From assembly GCA_021787845.1 (NCBI GenBank), contig JAJYLH010000024.1, positions 1 through 64,000 of the forward strand: DNA of 64,000 nucleotides. Direction: 5' to 3'. This stretch comes from Myxococcales bacterium. GTDB taxonomy: Bacteria; Myxococcota; Myxococcia; Myxococcales; JAJYLH01. Of this stretch, positions 18,217 to 64,000 are shown piece after piece. The notes below the pieces were generated by a model. It saw nothing but the letters and a program-made list of their open reading frames with translations, had not been told where the DNA came from and did not search any database. The translations under genes and the position numbers were made by a program. Each line of letters opens with the position of its first letter. Position 1 is the stretch's first letter.

Positions 18217-19500
18217 ATGTCGAAACGGATGCTGATCCTGCTAGCGATTGCAGCAGCGACGTCATTGACCTGCATCTTCAGCTACGACAACCCGGCGGAG
18301 AAGCTGGAGCCGGGCGAGGTGCGCGGGCGAGTGGTGGCGGCGCGCGAAGGGAGCGCGGCCTTGGTGCCGGTGCCCGACGCGGGGATTCGAATCGTCGGGG
18401 TGGGCTACATCTGCCAGTCGAAATCGGATGGTCGCTTCGCCATCTTCGACCTCCCACCGGGCACCTACCAGGTCGGCGTCGAGGACGATTCGAGCTCGAC
18501 GCCGCGCCGGGCGATGGTCTCGGTGACGCTGTCGGACGCGAACGACGCGGTCGACCTGGGCGACCTCGTGGTCGCGTATGGCGCGACGATTCAGGGCAAG
18601 GTCCTCCACCCGGACGGAACCCCGGCGCCGGGGGCGCAGGTCGTGGACCCGGCTGCGAGCGCGCTCGCCTTCACCGATCAGACCGGCACCTACCAGCTTC
18701 CGGCATCGGCCCCCGGGGTCCACGAGCTGAGCGCGAGCACAAAGCTTCCGGTCGAAGGCACCCTGGTCGCGGGACCGGTGAAAGTCGAGGTGAAGGCGCA
18801 AGACGAACGAAAGACCGTCACCGCGGGCCCCATGACGCTGCACGCCTCGACCGGGCTCGGCACGGTGCAAGCACCGGTCAGATTCCTCATCCAAGGGAAG
18901 AAGGCGCCGCCGACTCCCGCCGAGCTGCAGGCGACCCTCTGGGGCCAGGATCAGGCGACGACGACCCTCGCTCGACCGGGATCGGATGACGTGATTCGCG
19001 ACCAGGTTCCAGCGGGTCTGTACTACTCGCTGGACGTCACCGCCAGCGGCTGGTCCGGCGGAACGATGCAGCCCGGCAGCGCCGGACCGATCGTCATCGT
19101 CGACGGGAAGGTGACCGAGGTCGGACCGATCTTCCTGGTCGACCAAGACTGGCTCGACGCCGAGGCGCAGGCGCAGGGCGAATCCCCCGACGGCGGAAGC
19201 GAGGACGCCGGGGTGCCGCCCAGGACCTGCTCCTGCACTTCCGACGGCGGCGTGGTGACCGGCGTGAACATCGAGCGCGACGGCGGCTGCGCAACCTGGG
19301 GAGGCCCGGACTGCGACGCGTTGGACTCGATCTACTGCGAGTCGTATTGCGGTCAACCCGGCAACTCCACCGACGCCGGCTTCGACGGATGCTTCACCGC
19401 TTGCGATAGCACCTTCGAGGGACACCCCTTCACCGCCGGCCAGGACTTCGAGGTCCACGAGGCGGGGTTCGATTGCTCGGCCACCATCGTCTGCCCTTAG
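18217..19500 (+). CDS. Exported carboxypeptidase-regulatory-like protein
   Basis: The 427-residue product starts MSKRMLILLAIAAATSLTC, a signal peptide ending in a possible but non-ideal lipobox. Two carboxypeptidase-regulatory-like (Cna-B fold) segments follow (GEVRGRVVAAREGSAALVPV, DGRFAIFDLPPGTYQVGVED; TIQGKVLHPDGTPAPGAQVV, FTDQTGTYQLPASAPGVHEL). The Cys-rich C-terminus (CSCTSDGGVVTGVNI, CATWGGPDCDALDSIYCESY) probably forms disulfides. It belongs to the same transcription unit as the PEGA protein. No enzymatic motif is seen. Confidence 0.8.
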   Translation: MSKRMLILLAIAAATSLTCIFSYDNPAEKLEPGEVRGRVVAAREGSAALVPVPDAGIRIVGVGYICQSKSDGRFAIFDLPPGTYQVGVEDDSSSTPRRAMVSVTLSDANDAVDLGDLVVAYGATIQGKVLHPDGTPAPGAQVVDPAASALAFTDQTGTYQLPASAPGVHELSASTKLPVEGTLVAGPVKVEVKAQDERKTVTAGPMTLHASTGLGTVQAPVRFLIQGKKAPPTPAELQATLWGQDQATTTLARPGSDDVIRDQVPAGLYYSLDVTASGWSGGTMQPGSAGPIVIVDGKVTEVGPIFLVDQDWLDAEAQAQGESPDGGSEDAGVPPRTCSCTSDGGVVTGVNIERDGGCATWGGPDCDALDSIYCESYCGQPGNSTDAGFDGCFTACDSTFEGHPFTAGQDFEVHEAGFDCSATIVCP

Positions 19501-19689
19501 GCGCGAAGAAGGTCCGTCGGCCGGCGCCACCGAACGCCACCCGCCGCGCGCAAGCGCCTGGAGGCGCTCTGGGCGTCGCGGCTCCGGACCGCGAGGCGCC
19601 CCGGGATGCCAGCGCTCGGTTCAGCTTGCAAGCCACCAAACGCTCGCGTGTACAATCTGGCTCGCGGCGCCCGCCGAGGAGGTAGGAAC

Positions 19690-22467
19690 ATGCGACCTGC
19701 TCTGGGTTCGTGCCTTTCGTCCGGGGTCTTGGCGCTTCTCATCGGGTGCAGCAGCCCGCCTCCGGTGAAGTCGACCGGCACCGCTCCCACTACCCTGACG
19801 GTCACCGCGGCGGCGCCGCAGGTTCCCCTCGGCGGGAGCGTCCGGCTCACCGCGACCGTCAAGCGTGGCGACGGCACCACCGCCGACGTCACCGAAGAGG
19901 CCGTCTGGTCCAGCGAGAATCCGGCGCGCTTCTCGGTCTCCAACGACGCCGGCTCGCGCGGGGTGGCGGTCGCGCTCTCGGTCGGCACGGGCACCGTCGT
20001 CGCCACCTACACGCCGAGCGGCGCGGCGGCCATCACCTCGAAACCGCTCTCGCTGGCCGGCATCGCTGCCGCTCCCAAGGCATTGGCGGTGGTTCCTCTG
20101 ACCCTGGCCGCGGGCACGCGCGCGCTCGCGCACGCGGACGCGACGCTGACCGACGGCACCACCCTCGACGTTTCGTCTTCGGTGACCTGGTCGGTCGCGC
20201 CAGCCGGCCTCGCCACGGTCTCCAACACGGTCGGCCACTGGGGCGAGGTGACCGCCGGCCATCAAGCGGGAAGCGGGACCCTGGCCGCGACCCTGGGCGA
20301 CCTGTCGGCGCAAGGGACATTGAGCGTGACGGCAGCGGTCTTGACCTCCATCGCGGTGACGGCGAGCCCCGCGAGCGCGCCGGCCGGCCATTCGGTGCAG
20401 CTCACCGCGACGGGCACCTTCTCCGACGGCAGCACCCAGGATTTGACGACCCAGGTCGCCTGGTCGAGCCCGGGCGGCGGCCTCGCCATCACCCCGGCCG
20501 GGGAAGCGACACCGCTCGAGGAGGGCCTGTTCAGCGCGGTCGCCACCTTCGACGGCGTCAGCGGCCAAGCCGAGGTCGCCGGGCTCGCGCCGGTAATCGA
20601 TTCGCTCGCCTCGCTTTCGCCAGCGAAGGTAACCCTCGGCGTCGGGCAGACGGCGAGCCTGAAGCTGACGGCGCTCTACTCCGACGAGACCCAGCAGGAC
20701 GACACCGCCGACGCGGCCGTGAAGTGGGCAGCGGCGGATCCGACGCTGGTCGGGTTCGGGAGCCAGCCGGGCACCGTCATCGGCAAGGCCCCGGGGCAGA
20801 CCACGGTCACCGCGACCCTCGCCGATTCGACGGCCACCACGACGGTGATCGTCACCGCTCCCGCTTCCCTGACGCCGGTCGCGCTGGTCGTCTCGCCTCA
20901 GACCTCCACCCTGGAGACCGGCCAGTGCTTCCTGTTCACCGCGACCGTGACCTACTCCGACGGCTCGTCCGGCGACGCGTCGGCCATCGGCGGTTGGACC
21001 AGCTCGGACACGACGGTGCTCGCGCCGGGAAACGCGCCTTCGACCTTCTGCGGCGCGGGCGTGGGCAGCGCGACCCTGACCGCGACCCTCGGCGACGCGA
21101 CCGGCACCGCCCAGGTGGCGGTCGCCCAGCGGCCGCCGCCGTATCAGAAGAAGCCCACCGCCATCGAGCTCGGACCGACCGGCGCGACGATGGTCGCCGG
21201 CGACTGCCTCGGATTCTCCGCCACCATCGACTACGACGACGGGTCCACCTCCGACGGCGCGGGCGTGGTGGCGTTCTCCTCGTCCGATCCGACGGTTCTC
21301 GCCTACGCGAGCGGAGCGGGCGACGACGAATTCTGCGCGGTCGCTCCCGGGACGGCCAACGTCGTCGCCACCCTGGGGTCCCTCCAGGGCCAGGTCTCGG
21401 TGACGGTGACCGCGCGGGCGCCGCCCCCGCCGCCTCCGTCGCAGACGCTGCAGGGGCTGGTGATCGGCCCGGACAACGTGTCGGTGCCCGAGCAGGGCTA
21501 CTACCCGCTCTTCTTCGCGACCTGCCAATGGGAGGACGGTCACACCACCGACTGCACCCAGAACGCGGTCTGGACTTCCGGCGACCCGTCGATTCTGGAT
21601 TTCGGTCTCCTCTGCGGCGGGCACGCGTGCGGTTATGGCGTCCATCCCGGCACGACGACGCTCAGCGCGACCATCGGCAGCGCCACTTCGAACACGCTCT
21701 CGGTCACCGTCACGAGCACCCTGCCGCCGCTGGAAGTCACGAGCCTGTGGCCAACCATCATCGATGCCGGCGGCGGCGTGGCCCTCACGGGACAAGGCTT
21801 TTCGACCACGCTGACGGAAGACCAGGTCACCGACGCTGGCGGGCACGCCGTGACCGTCACCTCCGCCACCTCGACCGGCCTGTCGGTCGCCTTCCCGAGC
21901 GACGGCGTCAGCGGTCCGTTGACGGTCACCGTGCGCGGTCAAACCGTGACCACGACCGACGCGGTGGTCGTGCGCTATCCGCGGTCGTCGATCGCGTCCT
22001 TCACGTTCAGCCCGCTTCCGGCCAACGCTGCTTCCGACGGGACGACCGACCTGCGGCTCGATGACGGCAATCTGGGGTCCGGCTGGTACCTCCCCTACCT
22101 CGATCAATCCATGTTCTATTATTGGAGGCAAAGCGGCGAAATCGACGTGGACCTCGACCTGGGCCGGACCGAGCCGGTGGGCAGCGTCGGGTTCACCATT
22201 CCGGACGGCTCGCACTGCGATGGGAACGTCTGCAGCCTCACGCCGACCGGAGCGACCCTCGCGGTCTCCGACGATGGCACGACCTACACCACCGTCGGCA
22301 CGGCCTCCTACTCGTCCTGGAACCAGTGCAACGTCCGGGGTCTGTACGTGAAGTCGACGACGCCGGGCTCCCAGGGCCGCTACGTCCGGCTGACCATCGA
22401 GGCGAACACCCCTTCCGGGTACGGCTACACCGCCGCGCTGTTCGAGGTCGCGGTCTCGGGCACGTGA
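19690..22467 (+). CDS. Large Ig-like repeat lipoprotein with C-terminal discoidin-like domain
   Basis: The 925-residue product starts MRPALGSCLSSGVLALLIGC, with the lipobox Cys at residue 20. GGAGGTAGGAAC before ATG 19690 fixes the start. Tandem BIG2-type Ig-like repeats fill about 30-720; recurring motifs include LTATVKRGDGTTADVTEEAV, TATGTFSDGSTQDLTTQVAW and TVTYSDGSSGDASAIGGW. An IPT/TIG-like segment is followed by a C-terminal F5/8 type C-like domain (about 770-925, EIDVDLDLGRTEPVGSVGFT). It is a likely surface adhesin or carbohydrate-binding protein and stands alone. Confidence 0.87.
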   Translation: MRPALGSCLSSGVLALLIGCSSPPPVKSTGTAPTTLTVTAAAPQVPLGGSVRLTATVKRGDGTTADVTEEAVWSSENPARFSVSNDAGSRGVAVALSVGTGTVVATYTPSGAAAITSKPLSLAGIAAAPKALAVVPLTLAAGTRALAHADATLTDGTTLDVSSSVTWSVAPAGLATVSNTVGHWGEVTAGHQAGSGTLAATLGDLSAQGTLSVTAAVLTSIAVTASPASAPAGHSVQLTATGTFSDGSTQDLTTQVAWSSPGGGLAITPAGEATPLEEGLFSAVATFDGVSGQAEVAGLAPVIDSLASLSPAKVTLGVGQTASLKLTALYSDETQQDDTADAAVKWAAADPTLVGFGSQPGTVIGKAPGQTTVTATLADSTATTTVIVTAPASLTPVALVVSPQTSTLETGQCFLFTATVTYSDGSSGDASAIGGWTSSDTTVLAPGNAPSTFCGAGVGSATLTATLGDATGTAQVAVAQRPPPYQKKPTAIELGPTGATMVAGDCLGFSATIDYDDGSTSDGAGVVAFSSSDPTVLAYASGAGDDEFCAVAPGTANVVATLGSLQGQVSVTVTARAPPPPPPSQTLQGLVIGPDNVSVPEQGYYPLFFATCQWEDGHTTDCTQNAVWTSGDPSILDFGLLCGGHACGYGVHPGTTTLSATIGSATSNTLSVTVTSTLPPLEVTSLWPTIIDAGGGVALTGQGFSTTLTEDQVTDAGGHAVTVTSATSTGLSVAFPSDGVSGPLTVTVRGQTVTTTDAVVVRYPRSSIASFTFSPLPANAASDGTTDLRLDDGNLGSGWYLPYLDQSMFYYWRQSGEIDVDLDLGRTEPVGSVGFTIPDGSHCDGNVCSLTPTGATLAVSDDGTTYTTVGTASYSSWNQCNVRGLYVKSTTPGSQGRYVRLTIEANTPSGYGYTAALFEVAVSGT

Positions 22468-56644: not shown

Positions 56645-57301
56645 ATGTGCGGCGGATTCAGCGGTTGGGGCGGCCCACCCTGGCCCGGCGGCGGCGGATT
56701 CGGCTGGCCGCAGGGGTTCTGCCCCCATTGCGGTCACCCGTGGCCGAGCACGGTCGCGTACGGTCCGCCTTTCGGCCACCCGCCGCCCGGCTATGGCCCG
56801 GCGCCCCTGCCCTGGCATTTCCACGCGATGGGCCCGGGACGGCACGGCGGGTACGGTCCTCCCCCGCCACCCTGGGGAGGACCTCCGACCGGCGGCGCGC
56901 CGCCCTGCTGCTGGGGTTTCGCTGGGGGCGTGCGCTGCTGGCCCACGCCACGCTGCCACGACTGCCACAACCATCACCATCACGACGATGGTGGTGAGGA
57001 GCGCTCCTGCGATCCGGGAGGGCCACCCTGGGGCGGTCCGCCGGGCAGTACCGGACCGGGTCCCTGGGGCCCGCCAGGCCACTGGGACCATCGCCCTCCT
57101 CACCGCGAGGCTCCTCCGCCGCCCCCGCACCGCGCTCCGCCACCTCGGCCGCCCGAGCGCGAGGCACCTGCGACGAGCGCCGCCGAGCAGCCCGCGCCCC
57201 CTCCGGCTCCGCCGAGCGCGCCGGCCGCTCCGCCCGAGACCGAGCACGAGCCGGCTCGTACCGGGCCCGACGAAGGCAAGGACGCCCCAGCGCGCGAGTA
57301 G
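56645..57301 (+). CDS. Gly/Pro/His/Cys-rich low-complexity protein
   Basis: The 218-residue product starts MCGGFSGWGGPPWPGGGGFG and runs through Pro/Gly/Trp-rich repeats, with clustered metal-type residues (CHDCHNHHHHDDGGEERSCD near 105-122). An Ala/Pro/Glu-rich end follows. AAAGGAGGCGACC before ATG 56645 is a strong ribosome site, supporting a real gene despite low complexity. It ends just before a convergent radical SAM gene. It could be a metal-binding structural protein or a substrate of the neighbouring enzymes. No homology is claimed. Confidence 0.65.
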   Translation: MCGGFSGWGGPPWPGGGGFGWPQGFCPHCGHPWPSTVAYGPPFGHPPPGYGPAPLPWHFHAMGPGRHGGYGPPPPPWGGPPTGGAPPCCWGFAGGVRCWPTPRCHDCHNHHHHDDGGEERSCDPGGPPWGGPPGSTGPGPWGPPGHWDHRPPHREAPPPPPHRAPPPRPPEREAPATSAAEQPAPPPAPPSAPAAPPETEHEPARTGPDEGKDAPARE

Positions 57302-57340
57302 CTTTCGCCCGCCCTCTGCGAAAACCGATTCGTCGCGGCT

Positions 57341-59194
57341 TCAAGCCGCAGTCGGCCGGGTGCCTTCAGGGCCGCCGGTGACCGGGAGCGCTGCCGTTTC
57401 CCCGATCGGCTGCATGATGCCGTACCCGTGCGCGCGCACGTAGTTGACGTGCATTCCGTCGCAAGCGACGTCGTGCGCGCAGGTCTTGCATCGAAGCGCC
57501 TTCGACTGGTAACGGTCCTGGATGTAGCGTTTCGCGTAGCGGAAGATCTCGAGCCGCCCGTCCGGCGCCAGCATCGCGGTGTCGAGCGTCTTCGGCGGCG
57601 GCCGCTCGGGCCGGCCGGTGACGCAGGCGGGCACCCCTTCCACCAGCACCGGCTCGCGAAAATCGCGGAAGAAGGCCCGCAGGTCGAGGTCCATCTCCGC
57701 GTTCCCGCTCATCAGCTCGTACTTCGGCTGCCGCAGGGATAGCCGCGGCGGTACTGGTGAGAGGGAGCGCAAGTACCCCTCGGTGGCGCGGGTCAAGAGC
57801 ACCGTCACTTCGAACGTGCCGGGCAGCCGGAAGAGCCGCCGCGCCTGCTCCGGGTCCTTCGCCACCGCCCGGACGAGCTTGCGCCCGGCGAAAGCGCCGC
57901 TCTCATCCAGGCGCGCTTCCAGCCCCTCGTACGAGCCGAGCTCGAGCTCGACTTCCGCGATCCCGGGGTGCCGCACCAAAGCCTGGGCCGCGCTCGGCAC
58001 GTCCGGCGCCACCAGCTCCATCCGCCGCGCGCCGCAGCTATCCATGAGCGCTTCCGCTGAGGGATACCGCTTCAGGGGTGGATGCTTCCGTTCCGCTCCG
58101 AGCACCGGCAGCGCAGCGCGCCCCTCTGGGTCCTCCCCGAGCCGCGCCCGCTTCGCGCTCGCCGGGTCGCCGCCCAAGGCCGGCTCCTGCTTCCCCTCCG
58201 CCGTGCACAGCCGCACCCGCTCGAACCGCTCGGAAGCGAGGTCGGCGCGGATGCCGTAGAGCGTGTCGCACAGCCGCTCGAGGTAGCAGTGGCCGCACCG
58301 GAACGGGTCGCGGCAGTCGAGGTCGATGCCCTCGTCGATCAAGCGCGCGAATTCCTCCTGGCGCCCCCGGACCTCGTCGTTGAGCTTGTACGGATCCTGA
58401 ATCAGGTGCTCGTAGCCCTCCAGGTGCGGTGGCGGGAAGCGGTTGAGCCAGAGGTGGACGTCGGGCCTCTTGGCCCACTCGAACGCTTCCAACAGGTAGG
58501 AGCGCATCTGCCCCAGGTCGTAGAAGAGGATGTCCTTCCCCTCGCGAAAGGCGTTGCCGAAGGGAATCACCTGCAGGAGGTCGAATTCCCTGACGCCCCA
58601 GGAATAGAACAACGTGAGCATCGCGTGCAGGTGCCTCACGTTCCCGCGGTTGATGACGATGTCGACGTTGACGATCGGCCGGCCGTCGGCGAGCGCGTTC
58701 TTCAGGCCCTGCGATTCCTGCTCGAACGCGCCCTTCACGCCCACGAGCGCGTCGTGGATTTTCGCGTTCGGCCCGTGCAGGGAGAAGGTGATTTCGTCGA
58801 GACCGGCGTCGAGGCAGCGGGAGAGGAAGCCGGGATACATGAACCGGCGGCCGTTGGTGACGGTCTGGATCTTCCGGTAGCCGGCCTGTCGGCCGAGGCG
58901 GATGAAATCGACGAACGACGGGTGCATCGTCGGCTCGCCGCCGGAGAGGATGAGCCGCTGCGCTCCTGCTTTCCTTCCGTCGAGAATCTGCGTCTTCACC
59001 TCGTCCCGGTCGCGCATCACCCCGTCGTGGGTGAGCGTGTCGAGGCAGAAGACGCAATGGTTGTTGCAGTCGAAGGTCAGCCGGACCCAGTTGCGTTTCT
59101 CGTGCGCGGCCTCTTCGTGCGCCGCTACCTTCGCGGCCTGTCCGGCCCGCTCGGCGGGCGCGTCGGGCGGTCGGTCGCTCGGCGAGACGGACAT
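57341..59194 (-). CDS. Radical SAM enzyme with SPASM/twitch-like C-terminal cysteines
   Basis: The 617-residue product has the radical SAM cluster motif CNNHCVFC (C43, C47, C50). GGEPTMHPSFVDFI and VTNGRRFMYPGFLSRCLDAG follow, with a full TIM-barrel. The middle carries CRDPFRCGHCYLERLCDTLY. The C-terminal region ends with CKTCAHDVACDGMHVNYVRA and GYGIMQPIG. Extra Cys clusters suggest auxiliary iron-sulfur clusters, as in SPASM/twitch peptide-modifying enzymes. A 67-base divergent gap separates its start from the tandem radical SAM gene. Substrate unknown. Confidence 0.88.
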   Translation of the reverse strand: MSVSPSDRPPDAPAERAGQAAKVAAHEEAAHEKRNWVRLTFDCNNHCVFCLDTLTHDGVMRDRDEVKTQILDGRKAGAQRLILSGGEPTMHPSFVDFIRLGRQAGYRKIQTVTNGRRFMYPGFLSRCLDAGLDEITFSLHGPNAKIHDALVGVKGAFEQESQGLKNALADGRPIVNVDIVINRGNVRHLHAMLTLFYSWGVREFDLLQVIPFGNAFREGKDILFYDLGQMRSYLLEAFEWAKRPDVHLWLNRFPPPHLEGYEHLIQDPYKLNDEVRGRQEEFARLIDEGIDLDCRDPFRCGHCYLERLCDTLYGIRADLASERFERVRLCTAEGKQEPALGGDPASAKRARLGEDPEGRAALPVLGAERKHPPLKRYPSAEALMDSCGARRMELVAPDVPSAAQALVRHPGIAEVELELGSYEGLEARLDESGAFAGRKLVRAVAKDPEQARRLFRLPGTFEVTVLLTRATEGYLRSLSPVPPRLSLRQPKYELMSGNAEMDLDLRAFFRDFREPVLVEGVPACVTGRPERPPPKTLDTAMLAPDGRLEIFRYAKRYIQDRYQSKALRCKTCAHDVACDGMHVNYVRAHGYGIMQPIGETAALPVTGGPEGTRPTAA

Positions 59195-59261
59195 CGGGCC
59201 GATGATAGGGAAGCGCTGCGAGCCGCGCTACACTCGCGCCTTGCGAGGGAACCCGCAAAAA

Positions 59262-61598
59262 ATGCCGCGCCGACCGCGCCTCGTCGTCATCCACCCGCCC
59301 GTCTCCCTCGCGCGCGATTTCATCGACTATCCGTACTTCGCCGACCTCGGCGCGGTGCAGGCAGCGAGCGTTCTCGCGCAAGCGCTCGGCGCCGAAGTCG
59401 ACCTGGTCGACGCGTACGCGCTGCCCACTTCCACGCTCGCCTGGCGACCGGATGGGCGAGCGCACCTCGGCGCGCCGGTGGCGGACGTGCTCGCGCGGGC
59501 GCCGGTCGAGGGGGCCGACGCGGTCGTCGTCGCCTACACGCCTTTTCACCGCCCGCCGCGGCGCGACGACGTCCTCGCCGAGCTGCTCGGGGGCCTGCGC
59601 GCCCGCACGGACCGGCCGATCGTCCTCGCCGACTGCTACCAGTCCGGGCAGCACTACATCGATGCCGGAGAGCAGGTGCTCTCCCGCTACCCGGAGTGCG
59701 ACGCGCACGTGAAGTACGAGGCGGAGGTGACCCTGCCGGCGCTCTTGCGCGCGTGGACCGACCGCGCGGTCAGGCCGGCGGGCACCGTGCTCGGCGAATC
59801 ACCGCCGAGCCTCGACGACTTGCCGTTCCCCGCGTGGGGCAGCATCGCTCTCGAGGAGTACTTCCGCTTCCAGAACCGGGTGATGGCGCTCGCCGGCCGC
59901 GGCGTCTGGGCGTTTCCCATCGACGGGCGCACGCTGCCCATCGTCACCAGTCGCGGCTGCCCCTTCGCCTGCGTCCATTGCAGCTCGAACCCCGGCCGGC
60001 GTCCCGGCGAGAAGAAGACCCAGCGCCGCCTCTCGCCCGAACGGATGCGCGCTCATCTTCGCGAGCTGTCGACGACCGCCCGGGCGACGCGGCTCGCAGT
60101 CCTCGACGAGCTCGCCAACGTGAGCGAGCGGCACTTCGACGCCCTGCTCGACCAGGTGGAGGAGCTCGACGTCCTCTTCGACTGCCCGAACGGCCTGCGC
60201 GCCGACTACCTCTTGCCGCGCCACCTCGCGCGCATGCGCGGGCGCGTTTCGACGGTGTCGGTCTCGGCCGAGAGCGGCAACCAGCGCGTCGTCACCGAGG
60301 TGGTGCACAAGAGGCTCGACCTTCGCGCCATCGAGGAGGCCGCGAGGAACGCGCGCGAGGCCGAGGTGCCTCTCCTCGTCCATTTCATCATCGGGCTGCC
60401 GGGCGAGTCGGCGGGGGAGATCAACGACACCCTCGCCTTCGCGATGGACCTGTGGGACCGCTACCGGGCGCGGCCGGCGGTCCAGTTCGCGACACCGCTC
60501 CCCGGCACCGCTCTCGCCGAGGGGAGAACGCTCCCGGCGGTCGACGACTGGGGCCCGGCTTTCCAGACCGCTCCCGCCCAGCCCGACGCCGCCGTCGACG
60601 CCCGGACCCTGCGCCGTTTCAAGTGGACCTTCGACCAGCGGCTCGCCCACTCCGCCGGCCCGAAGAAGGTCGTCCTCAACGTCACCTATGTCTGCAACAA
60701 CCACTGCACCTTCTGCGCGGTCGGCACCCGCACCCAGGTCCACGGGAACACCGCCCGCCAGCGCGAGCACCTGGAGCGCTTCCGCTCAGAGGGAGTGGAG
60801 CTGGTCGACTTCGACGGCGGCGAGCCGACGCTCCACCCCGACCTCCTCGACCTCATCCGCCATGCCCGGTCGATCGGCTATTCGCGGGTCAGCGTCACCA
60901 CCAACGGCCGGCTGTGCGCCTACGAGGACTTCGCCCGCCGGCTGGTCCATTCGGGGCTGACGACGCTGCTCTTCAGCGTGCACGGTTCCGACGCGAAGAC
61001 CCACGCCCAGGCGGTCGGCGTCGCCGAAGCGTTCGACCAGACCGTCCGGGGCATCGAGAACGCGCGCCGCCACGCGCCCCGAGCGGTCGAGCTGGGGATG
61101 AACATCACCCTGACCAAGGGCAACTTCGAGAGGCTGGGCGAGGTGGCCGACCTCGCGTGGAGCCTCGGCCTCCCCTGGCTCAACATCCAGTTCCTCACCC
61201 CCTTCGGCCGCGCGACGAGCTGGGTCGCGCCGGACACCGGGAGCGCCGCCGCCGAGACCCGGCGGGTCATCGACCGGTGGAAGGAGCGGATGAAGCTGCA
61301 GGTGGTGAACCTGCCGTTCTGTTTCCTGCCCGGATACGAGGAGTTCGTGCTGGGCGACCTCGCGAAGCTCGAGCGCCAGATGATCTTCGTCAACAACGAG
61401 CAGGTGAACCTGGCCGCCTACCTGGCCGAACGGCGCGTCTATCGGCCCGAGTGCTCTCCCTGCCCGCACCGGGTCTTCTGCGGCGGCTTCTACGAGCTCG
61501 ACCAGGCGCCGGAGCCCCCCTGGGTCGTCGGCCCGGCCGACCTCGACCGGCCCCTGGCGGCGCGGGAGCCCGCCTCGCTCGGCCGCCGGTCCCGGTGA
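59262..61598 (+). CDS. Tandem radical SAM protein: B12-binding-type plus second SAM module
   Basis: The 778-residue product has an N-terminal B12-binding-like region (VVIHPPVSLARDFIDYPYFA, LADCYQSGQHYIDAGEQVL). A radical SAM module follows with C233-PFA-C237-VH-C240 (RGCPFACVHCSS). A linker precedes a complete second radical SAM module with C478-NNH-C482-TF-C485 (VCNNHCTFCAV), DGGEPTLHPDLLDLIRHA and VTTNGRLCAYEDFARRL. It ends in a SPASM-like CSPCPHRVFCGGF segment. Two full cores in one chain are unusual. ATG 59262 follows GCGAGGGA. The next gene, encoding a Tat-exported protein, follows about 195 bases downstream. Confidence 0.86.
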   Translation: MPRRPRLVVIHPPVSLARDFIDYPYFADLGAVQAASVLAQALGAEVDLVDAYALPTSTLAWRPDGRAHLGAPVADVLARAPVEGADAVVVAYTPFHRPPRRDDVLAELLGGLRARTDRPIVLADCYQSGQHYIDAGEQVLSRYPECDAHVKYEAEVTLPALLRAWTDRAVRPAGTVLGESPPSLDDLPFPAWGSIALEEYFRFQNRVMALAGRGVWAFPIDGRTLPIVTSRGCPFACVHCSSNPGRRPGEKKTQRRLSPERMRAHLRELSTTARATRLAVLDELANVSERHFDALLDQVEELDVLFDCPNGLRADYLLPRHLARMRGRVSTVSVSAESGNQRVVTEVVHKRLDLRAIEEAARNAREAEVPLLVHFIIGLPGESAGEINDTLAFAMDLWDRYRARPAVQFATPLPGTALAEGRTLPAVDDWGPAFQTAPAQPDAAVDARTLRRFKWTFDQRLAHSAGPKKVVLNVTYVCNNHCTFCAVGTRTQVHGNTARQREHLERFRSEGVELVDFDGGEPTLHPDLLDLIRHARSIGYSRVSVTTNGRLCAYEDFARRLVHSGLTTLLFSVHGSDAKTHAQAVGVAEAFDQTVRGIENARRHAPRAVELGMNITLTKGNFERLGEVADLAWSLGLPWLNIQFLTPFGRATSWVAPDTGSAAAETRRVIDRWKERMKLQVVNLPFCFLPGYEEFVLGDLAKLERQMIFVNNEQVNLAAYLAERRVYRPECSPCPHRVFCGGFYELDQAPEPPWVVGPADLDRPLAAREPASLGRRSR

Positions 61599-61791
61599 GC
61601 GCAGCGCGCTCTCGGCGTGGCCTCACCGGGAGCGCGCCGGGCCATTTCGCCCGCCGCCAGGGCGTCGTCAAGGCGGCCCTGTTCCATCCCGCCTCTGGCC
61701 CGCGTCCGGGAAGCGCTTGACGCTCCATCCGTCACCTGTGTAAGCTTCGAGCTTGTTTTCCAGCGCTCGTCAGAGCATGCCGGAGAGTCCG

Positions 61792-62550
61792 ATGCCCGAA
61801 GGCCCCAAGCTCCTCACCAGACGCCACCTGCTCGCCCTCGCGGGGGGAGCCGCTGGCGTCGCCGTCGCGGGGAAGGCCGTGGCGGGCACCTGGAGTCGCC
61901 TGCCGGCGTCCCCTCGGAACGGCCGCCCGAGGCCCGCGGGCGCCCCGCCGAGCCAGGCAGCAGCGGACAAGCTCACCGCCACGCGTTCGAGCGTCGGTCC
62001 GCCGGCGCCGGCCGAGACTGCTTCCGCCTCCCGTGTCCCGGCGGCGGCTCCCAACGCCGTCAGCCGGGTCGCCGACTTCGGCCTCGAGCGCCATTTCACC
62101 GTGAAGAAGGCGGACCCGAGCCCTCGCGGCCCGGTGATGCGCCCGCTCGAGGTCCCCCCCGCGAGCGAGGCGGTGGCGGAGCTGTTCGGCGACGTCGGGG
62201 CGGGCACCCGGCTCGGCTCCTGCCGCGTGGTGCGGGTGCATGACATCTACATGGGCGCGGTGCCGGTGCTGTTGGAGACGGCGGACGGCGGACGCTTCCA
62301 GCTCGACGTGCTCAAGCGCGGCCCCGGGGTCCACGGCGTCGCTCACGCCGGCCAGCTCAGCATCTACGTGTCGAACCACGGCCATGGCTGGTCCCCGACC
62401 AACGAGCGGCAGGGCCAGGCGGCGCTCGCGCTCGCTCGGGCGCTGCGCGGCTCCGCGACCGCGCTCGTGCCGCGCGGGCTCTTGACGCTGCGCCAGCGGC
62501 TGCGGCGCTTCCCCCGAGGCGGCTTCTCGATTCCCTTGAAGGACGCGTGA
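61792..62550 (+). CDS. Tat-signal protein of unknown function
   Basis: The 252-residue product begins MPEGPKLLTRRHLLALAGGA, with twin arginines at 10-11 and a hydrophobic stretch, so it is probably Tat-exported. A Pro/Ala/Ser-rich linker is followed by a compact domain (RVADFGLERHFTVKKADPSP, GSCRVVRVHDIYMGAVPVLL, DVLKRGPGVHGVAHAGQLSI, YVSNHGHGWSPTNERQGQAA). His and Asn residues (SNHGHGW) could bind metal. GGAGAGTCCG precedes ATG 61792; 61777 is an earlier option. The last four bases overlap the next radical SAM gene. It may be that enzyme's product or partner. Confidence 0.7.
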   Translation: MPEGPKLLTRRHLLALAGGAAGVAVAGKAVAGTWSRLPASPRNGRPRPAGAPPSQAAADKLTATRSSVGPPAPAETASASRVPAAAPNAVSRVADFGLERHFTVKKADPSPRGPVMRPLEVPPASEAVAELFGDVGAGTRLGSCRVVRVHDIYMGAVPVLLETADGGRFQLDVLKRGPGVHGVAHAGQLSIYVSNHGHGWSPTNERQGQAALALARALRGSATALVPRGLLTLRQRLRRFPRGGFSIPLKDA

Positions 62551-63512
62551 AGCGCGGTCTCTTTCGGGTCGACCGGCGCTGCGACAATGCCTGCGTGTTC
62601 TGCGCCCAGGCGGGGTCGACTGTGCCGGCGCCATCGCCGGAGAGGGACCAACTCGCCAAGCTGCGAGCCGAGGTCGACGAGATCGCGTTCGTCGGCGGCG
62701 AGCCGACGCTCGACGCGGGCCTGGTCGATTGGGTGCGGGCGGCGAAGGAGGCCCGGTTCAGCCGGATCGGGTTGCAGACCCACGGGCGGCATCTCGCGGG
62801 CGACGACCTCGTCGCGCAGCTCGCGGCGGCCGGGCTGACCGACGTCCACTTCTCCCTCCACGGCGCGACGGCGCTTCTCCACGACCACGAGGTCCAAGTC
62901 CCCGGCGCCTTCGGGCAGGTGCTGCACGGGCTCGAGGCGGCGCGCTCGCTGGGCCTCGTGACGGTGGTGACGAGCGTCGTCACCCGCTCGAGCTTCCGCC
63001 ACCTGGGAGCGCTTCCAAAGCTCTTGAGCGCTGCCGGAGCTTCCGCCTGGTCGATGCGGATCGCGCAGGCGGCGGGGCGAGCGGCGACGTCGTTCGACCG
63101 GGTGGTGCCGCGGTTGGGGCTGGCGATGCCGTTTGTCCTCCATGCGCTGGACGACGCCGAGCGCCGCGGGCTCCCCACGTTTCTCGCGGGCGTTCCCGCG
63201 TGCCTCGCGGGGCCCTTCGCCGCGCGCCTGTTGCCGGAGCCGGGACGCGCTTTCGCGGCGGTGTGCGACCGGTGCCCGGCGCGGCCGAGCTGTCCGGGAG
63301 TGGAGCCGCTCTACTTGCGGCGGTTTTCGGGCGACGAGCTGCGCGCGCGCGGGTCCTGGCGCCCGGCGCGCGACCTCGAGCGGGACCTGCTGGGGCGGAT
63401 GTTCACCGGCGTCGGCGAGACCGCGCCGGGGTCGCCGCCCGCGCACCTTGGCGGCAGCCTGGACACCGCCGGTCCCGTCCCGCTGGCGACTGGGAACCGG
63501 CTTGCTCCTTGA
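62547..63512 (+). CDS. Short radical SAM protein
   Basis: The 321-residue product starts KRGLFRVDRRCDNACVFCAQ with C12, C16 and C19. AFVGGEPTLDAGLVDWVRAA, IGLQTHGRHLAGDDLVAQLA and VHFSLHGATALLHDHEVQVP follow. A C-terminal CDRCPARPSCPGVEPLYL could hold an auxiliary cluster. GTG 62547 overlaps the Tat protein stop (GTGA), so the two are co-translated. It is related to the other two radical SAM genes by layout. Substrate unknown. Confidence 0.87.
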   Translation: MKRGLFRVDRRCDNACVFCAQAGSTVPAPSPERDQLAKLRAEVDEIAFVGGEPTLDAGLVDWVRAAKEARFSRIGLQTHGRHLAGDDLVAQLAAAGLTDVHFSLHGATALLHDHEVQVPGAFGQVLHGLEAARSLGLVTVVTSVVTRSSFRHLGALPKLLSAAGASAWSMRIAQAAGRAATSFDRVVPRLGLAMPFVLHALDDAERRGLPTFLAGVPACLAGPFAARLLPEPGRAFAAVCDRCPARPSCPGVEPLYLRRFSGDELRARGSWRPARDLERDLLGRMFTGVGETAPGSPPAHLGGSLDTAGPVPLATGNRLAP

Positions 63513-63593: not shown

Positions 63594-64000
63594 TCAAGCT
63601 CGCTGGGTAACGGTCGCCGCGACTGCGCCCTCGAGCTGCGCCTGGTCGACGAAACGGTCGTCGTAGACGATCACCAGGGCGAGCCCGCTTCCCCCGGGCG
63701 CGCGGCGCTGGTACGCGAAGACCAGGGTCAGCGGCTCGTTGGCGAGCACGGTCGCCCGCCGCAGGAAAGCGAGAGTGGTACCGCCTTGCGGGAGGGAAGC
63801 CGTTTCCAGCTCGCCCATCCACCGCTCGGCAGGGCCGTCGAAGGGTCCTTGGAGACCAAGCGCGGACGCAGCCAGAAGACGCACCTGGACCGGGCGCGCG
63901 CCGTTCTTGCGCAGCCGGTCCGCCATCTCCTTGGCGCCGCGGTCGCCCAGGAGGGTGTGCGCGCGCTCTTCGGGCGCGCTCACCTCGCGGGCGAGGCGGG
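63594..64000 (-). CDS. Hypothetical protein, 5' end outside the window
   Basis: The minus-strand frame is open to the window edge. The visible part reads EERAHTLLGDRGAKEMADRL, GARPVQVRLLAASALGLQGP, AERWMGELETASLPQGGTTL and ALVIVYDDRFVDQAQLEGAV. It looks like a compact alpha/beta domain with no signal peptide visible. I cannot name the family. A GTG at 63983 may be the start, but codons upstream also read through. It converges with the short radical SAM gene. Confidence 0.55.
   Translation of the reverse strand, partial: RLAREVSAPEERAHTLLGDRGAKEMADRLRKNGARPVQVRLLAASALGLQGPFDGPAERWMGELETASLPQGGTTLAFLRRATVLANEPLTLVFAYQRRAPGGSGLALVIVYDDRFVDQAQLEGAVAATVTQRA

Follow-up and report, generated by a model that had tools for sequence, protein, structure and literature searches.

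Radical SAM genes at a myxobacterial locus as probable accessory genes of a His-Xaa-Ser repeat peptide system

According to PMC9062424, which mentions the HXS motif, the His-Xaa-Ser (HXS) system of HxsA, HxsB, HxsC and HxsD goes back to an in silico description by Haft and Basu. It is represented by the NCBIfam models TIGR03976-TIGR03978 and relatives, and HxsA4 and HxsC4 already exist as named models (NF038313 and NF038332), which define single proteins only. A literature search found no paper on HxsA4, HxsC4 or any HXS product, and no HXS-system enzyme with a demonstrated reaction, so that the chemistry of the system is without a characterised relative. What we add here is a wider set of enzymes around HxsA4 (a tandem radical SAM protein with a B12-type module, R2; a pseudo-tandem, R1; and R3 and R5), a dependence of this set on the peptide at the level of whole genomes, and a link to Tat export.

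The window analysed, a stretch of 64,000 nucleotides, shares its coordinates with contig C104 of the source genome, which is 73,392 bases long and continues for 9.4 kb past the window end. In this region the first-pass annotation had described three proteins with four radical SAM (rSAM) modules between them, together with a Tat-exported protein. All of these genes were found in place (Table 1), including the divergent pair R1 and R2, which lie 67 bases apart, and the count of modules was borne out by Pfam Radical_SAM, which matches once in R1 (2.9e-17), twice in R2 (4.8e-37) and once in R3 (2.8e-15). The high GC3 of R1, R2, TAT and R3 (0.89-0.93) supports them as genes. A fifth rSAM gene on the minus strand, R4, has its 3' end in the window and its remainder past the window end, and a 129-aa open reading frame at 63594-63983 (minus strand) corresponds to its C-terminal part.

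Table 1. Features of the locus and of the HXS set in the source genome (contig coordinates refer to C104 unless another contig is named).
Feature	Coordinates	Strand	Description	Evidence
Gly/Pro/His/Cys-rich ORF	56645-57301		218 aa	
R1	57341-59194	-	rSAM protein, 617 aa	Pfam, alignment A3, hhalign, co-occurrence
R2	59262-61598	+	tandem rSAM, 778 aa	Pfam, AlphaFold model, structural matches
TAT	61753-62550	+	Tat-signal protein, conserved C-terminal domain of ~100 aa	family alignment, co-occurrence
R3	62547-63512	+	rSAM protein, 321 aa, HxsC-like	Pfam, NCBIfam, orthologue clade
R4, 3' part	63594-64000 (window); full gene contig 63594-65237	-	rSAM protein, 547 aa	
Repeat proteins (HxsA4), two	contig 65350-66066 and 66196-66684	-		NCBIfam HxsA4
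HxsD-like	contig 66999-67216	-		NCBIfam, 72 bits, cut-off 41
HxsD (TIGR03976)	contig 67213-67824	-		NCBIfam, 64.5 bits, cut-off 50
R5	contig ~67951-69828	-	sixth rSAM gene, fused C-terminal methyltransferase domain	
HxsB (TIGR03978)	C58:12840-14243		separate contig	548 bits, cut-off 370
HxsC4	contig C128			540 bits, cut-off 500

The window ends 1.4 kb before two genes for repeat peptides, which lie 1.4-2.7 kb past its end. Both match the HxsA4 model (E 1.8e-68 and 3.1e-43; 227 and 147 bits, cut-off 55). Elsewhere in the genome, the HxsB gene directly follows an HxsC4-like rSAM gene, and a search with HxsC itself (TIGR03977) gave no match at E 1e-25, a threshold at which the positive control was silent too. 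An H-x-S precursor, HxsB, an HxsC variant (HxsC4) and HxsD thus all score above their curated cut-offs, as expected of an HXS system, and since HxsB lies on C58, HxsC4 on C128 and the rest on C104, the HXS set of the source genome is complete but scattered. The locus differs from the described system in several respects: the peptide has an extended, almost pure (HGS)n array with a final Trp, the HxsC present is HxsC4, the genes are spread over several contigs, and there are the additional rSAM proteins R1, R2, R3 and R5 and a Tat partner.

Further rSAM genes of the source genome, on C35, C52, C56 and C108, group in an rSAM-domain tree built by a quick method with rSAM genes from the HXS neighbourhoods of relatives. 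R4 adjoins the HXS peptides, and it was rejected as a conserved member of the set because the relatives examined hold no orthologue of it, its nearest relative being a paralogue on contig C88 of the same genome. Across its 6.2 Mb the source genome has 69 matches to the rSAM domain. Tandem rSAM genes occur at three more places, on C108 (48.7-50.1 kb), where the gene groups with one adjoining R2 in locus L011, on C88 (75.4-76.7 kb), the contig that carries the nearest R4 relative, and on C142 (18.8-20.6 kb). On C58, at 18697-20034, there is also an open reading frame with many seven-residue GLVGEPG repeats, which may merely reflect the frame in which a DNA repeat is read.

In each of the two precursors a leader with the motif ELPxFxRDxGGxL...QRxIS is followed by H-x-S triplets, 35 in one and 59 in the other, and the C-terminal residue is Trp. 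We compared 32 distinct peptides comprising 630 triplets. His occupies the first position and Ser the third in every one of them (630/630 each), while the middle position holds Gly in 587, Cys in 24, Ala in 18 and Val in one. All 24 Cys residues lie in the first unit, which is HCS in 24 of the 32 peptides. Arrays range from 10 to 59 units and every array counted runs into HxSW-stop, an end that this census demanded, so that arrays ending otherwise would be missed; the Trp-stop end also held for complete HGS arrays in a search without the HxSW rule. At the DNA level the units differ by 672 silent and 16 replacing changes, where 23% silent would be expected by chance; the pattern behind this count requires His and Ser, while the looser census of 630 triplets leaves both free. 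As His and Ser are invariant and most DNA differences between units are silent, both residues are under selection, with Gly at the freer position.

It could be argued that the enzymes have nothing to do with these proteins, which would then be either structural and collagen-like (Gly-X-Y) or the result of repeat slippage. Indeed, both peptides give matches to Pfam Collagen (E 8.6e-28 and 1.7e-16) and Gly recurs at every third residue. However, Gly is not fixed at that position: it is replaced by Cys, Ala or Val in 43 of the 630 triplets, whereas His and Ser never are, the reverse of what characterises collagen, and the collagen reading was rejected on this ground. Repetition by slippage alone was rejected as well, for the units vary mostly at silent sites. 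Moreover, the leader, the first HCS unit and the terminal Trp are conserved across families. We hence regard a structural or slippage origin as highly improbable; despite the Pfam match, the constrained pattern is H-x-S and not Gly-X-Y.

The rSAM proteins of the window are related to the maturases of such peptides without belonging to their families. For R1, the second module of R2 and R3, the best profile is HxsC4, at 103, 116 and 113 bits, respectively, against a cut-off of 500; HxsC gives 88, 83 and 75 bits against 268. By these scores they are best described as relatives of HxsC/HxsC4 and not as members. R3 has a C-terminal CX2CX5C motif and, in the rSAM-domain tree, forms an orthologue clade of its own with genes from seven related loci. 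R1 carries an N-terminal rSAM/twitch module (C43, C47, C50; C294, C300, C303, C309) that is predicted to be active, followed by a decayed rSAM-like half that lacks CX3CX2C, keeps only C524, C569, C572 and C578, and aligns with the second module of R2 (hhalign, E 1.5e-5). In an alignment of 25 R1 orthologues with 52-65% identity (A3), all of these Cys columns are invariant. Because the C-terminal half is rSAM-like and retains the terminal cluster motif, R1 reads as a former tandem and looks like an enzyme that has lost one of its two active sites.

R2 is a true tandem, and its AlphaFold model is of high quality (pLDDT 90.7, pTM 0.88). Residues 3-465 are predicted to form a B12-type rSAM module (C233, C237, C240) in which a B12-binding-type domain stands N-terminal to the rSAM core, the arrangement that defines the cobalamin type. 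The closest structures to the first 465 residues are AprD4 (Z 26.3), MgmA (24.9), OxsB (22.6) and TsrM (22.0), with CysS also found. The fold and weak Pfam matches to PF02310 (B12-binding) in 6 of 35 R2 orthologues suggest that cobalamin is bound, and methyl transfer is a putative function. In its predicted architecture the module resembles the cobalamin rSAM enzymes MgmA, TsrM, OxsB, CysS and TokK (Z 20-25), but it is fused to a SPASM-type rSAM module, and AprD4, an aminoglycoside dehydratase, scores as well as they do. Residues 466-760 hold this second, SPASM/twitch-type rSAM module (C478, C482, C485; C687, C731, C734, C740). Modelled residues 466-777 match SkfB, SuiB, BlsE and anSME, and share the fold and the C-terminal Cys cluster with the maturases SkfB and SuiB and with anSME. 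Unlike these, the module has no sequence family membership, follows a B12-type module in the same protein and is tied to HXS repeats. A distant relative of R2 (31-33% identity) is found in L081:1-12019, on a contig labelled Nanoarchaeota archaeon, within a row of about nine rSAM modules; this contig could be mis-binned or could reflect a transfer.

To assign the window genes, we relied on their distribution and linkage. In a sample of 179 genomes of the phylum, with related genomes counted as independent, R1 is present in all 14 genomes with HxsA4 and in only 2 of the 165 without (Fisher p 5e-19), one of these two having a sub-cut-off HxsA4 match. On the same counting, R2 is found in 10 of the 14 against 1 of the 165 (p 1.5e-12), and members of the Tat family occur in 6 of the 14 against none of the 165 (p 7e-8). 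The co-occurrence spans several families. With four of the 14 HxsA4 genomes lacking R2 and eight lacking the Tat family, neither is essential everywhere. Conversely, all 15 further genomes reached via R2 carry HxsA4 above cut-off, unlinked cases included. In a linkage set of 79 relatives of R2 and further loci from whole genomes, those with enough flanking DNA often have HxsA4, HxsB, HxsC4, HxsD, R5, TAT, R3 and R1 near R2. Co-conservation, which had been set beforehand as the test of the idea that these genes form a peptide-modifying set, was thus observed both in shared neighbourhoods and across the 179 genomes, and with the HXS peptides and their partners nearby the idea is strongly supported.

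A different explanation is that R2 and R1 serve a pathway of their own, for a small molecule or a cofactor, which happens to be common in the same bacteria. The two halves of R2 are, by sequence, nearest to AprD4 and BlsE, respectively. Furthermore, R2 and the peptide lie more than 1 Mb apart on some closed or near-closed chromosomes; in Nannocystis poenicansa R2 is near 6.97 Mb and the peptide at 5.41 Mb, which places R1-R2 about 1.5 Mb from it. Yet the related loci show no further family of biosynthetic genes conserved beside R1-R2, and the dependence on HxsA4 holds at the genome level over several families, while the close linkage seen elsewhere fits a shared pathway. A separate pathway is in our view quite unlikely. 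From the linkage, the co-occurrence in 179 genomes and the 15 R2 genomes with HxsA4, we conclude with good confidence that the window genes are accessory genes for maturation and export in an HXS RiPP system of the Myxococcota type. The earlier statement that the genes fall in no recognised family therefore stands for R1, R2, R3 and the Tat protein taken singly, as none of them passes a named-family cut-off below superfamily level and none of R1 to R5 nor the Tat protein reaches an NCBIfam named family at cut-off; it does not stand for the set, which corresponds to the HXS system.

The Tat protein, whose export had been proposed from the sequence, does carry a predicted Tat-type signal, LLTRRHLLALAGGAAG, and its true start is likely to be the ATG at 61777 or 61792. 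The twin Arg is invariant in an alignment of 14 sequences (of 16 homologues found), and the family sits beside HXS genes. Its C-terminal domain is conserved and confidently modelled (pLDDT >90), and its fold has no convincing match in the PDB (Foldseek best E 0.037; VIA-align best Z 5.3, rmsd 4.3, 99 aligned). The gene overlaps the start of R3 by 4 bases, suggesting translational coupling, and the pair recurs in relatives. In locus L052 and in the f11 genomes (L150, L151, L154, L155) it is the HxsA4 peptide itself that bears a Tat signal. Since a lineage without the Tat protein has a Tat-signal peptide, both seem to belong to a single pathway, and the Tat family together with this fusion in a sister lineage suggests that the periplasm, or a place outside it, is where the product acts. 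In seven loci the aKG-HExxH peptide beta-hydroxylase family is represented by a nearby gene, in some of them close to R3 and the Tat gene; the one member tested (L146:15371-16552) scores above the TIGR04267 cut-off. Such a neighbour again points to peptide side-chain chemistry.

The enzymes could also act on something else, either the Tat protein or the protein rich in Gly, Pro, His and Cys that is encoded beside R1, and merely share the region with the HXS system. The pairing of the Tat gene with R3 would fit this, as would the adjacent open reading frame for the Gly-rich protein, which is open throughout and has a strong ribosome-binding site, AAAGGAGG. The first-pass annotation was right that this frame lies there, but its suggestion that the protein is a substrate was rejected, as the frame has no relative among 79 related loci; it is perhaps a real orphan gene and probably not part of the system. 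As for the Tat protein, R1 and R2 track HxsA4 in the f11 genomes, where the Tat family was not found, and also where the loci are unlinked, and the peptide carries a Tat signal of its own in a lineage without the Tat protein. We therefore consider a different target unlikely; the two HGS-repeat peptides are far likelier substrates than the Gly-rich protein.

Taken together, gene content makes it most likely that this larger myxobacterial system modifies small proteins of nearly pure His-Gly-Ser repeats. In the mechanism that we propose, HxsD and the HxsD-like protein would hold and present the leader, while HxsB, HxsC4, R1, the second module of R2, R3 and R5 would abstract hydrogens from His or Ser, proposed as targets because they are the invariant residues of the triplets, and thereby furnish the array with crosslinks or other modifications at carbon centres. 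As a cobalamin-type rSAM, the first R2 module would most likely C-methylate the peptide, and the fused methyltransferase of R5 would add a further group. The finished poly-His peptide would then serve in the periplasm alongside the Tat-exported partner. Its dense, regular imidazoles lead us to guess at metal or cofactor binding as its purpose. We tentatively put forward, as a possibility and not as the expected outcome, a genetically encoded polymer of up to 59 near-identical H-x-S units, modified repeatedly by at least eight rSAM modules, one of them B12-type, and serving with its Tat-exported partner as a periplasmic metal-binding, redox or cofactor polymer. To our knowledge, no RiPP has been described in which as many rSAM enzymes serve a single kind of repeat.

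Judging by the literature that can be searched, HXS systems have carried their in silico names for more than a decade without a known product. The substrate of the myxobacterial version, 10-59 copies of one triplet, is about as simple as a substrate can be, and it comes with a conserved enzyme set; any modification should therefore appear as a regular mass step per repeat. If the assignment is true, this would be a rare case of a B12-type and several SPASM-type rSAM enzymes acting on one repeat, and the link to Tat export indicates where its product should be sought.
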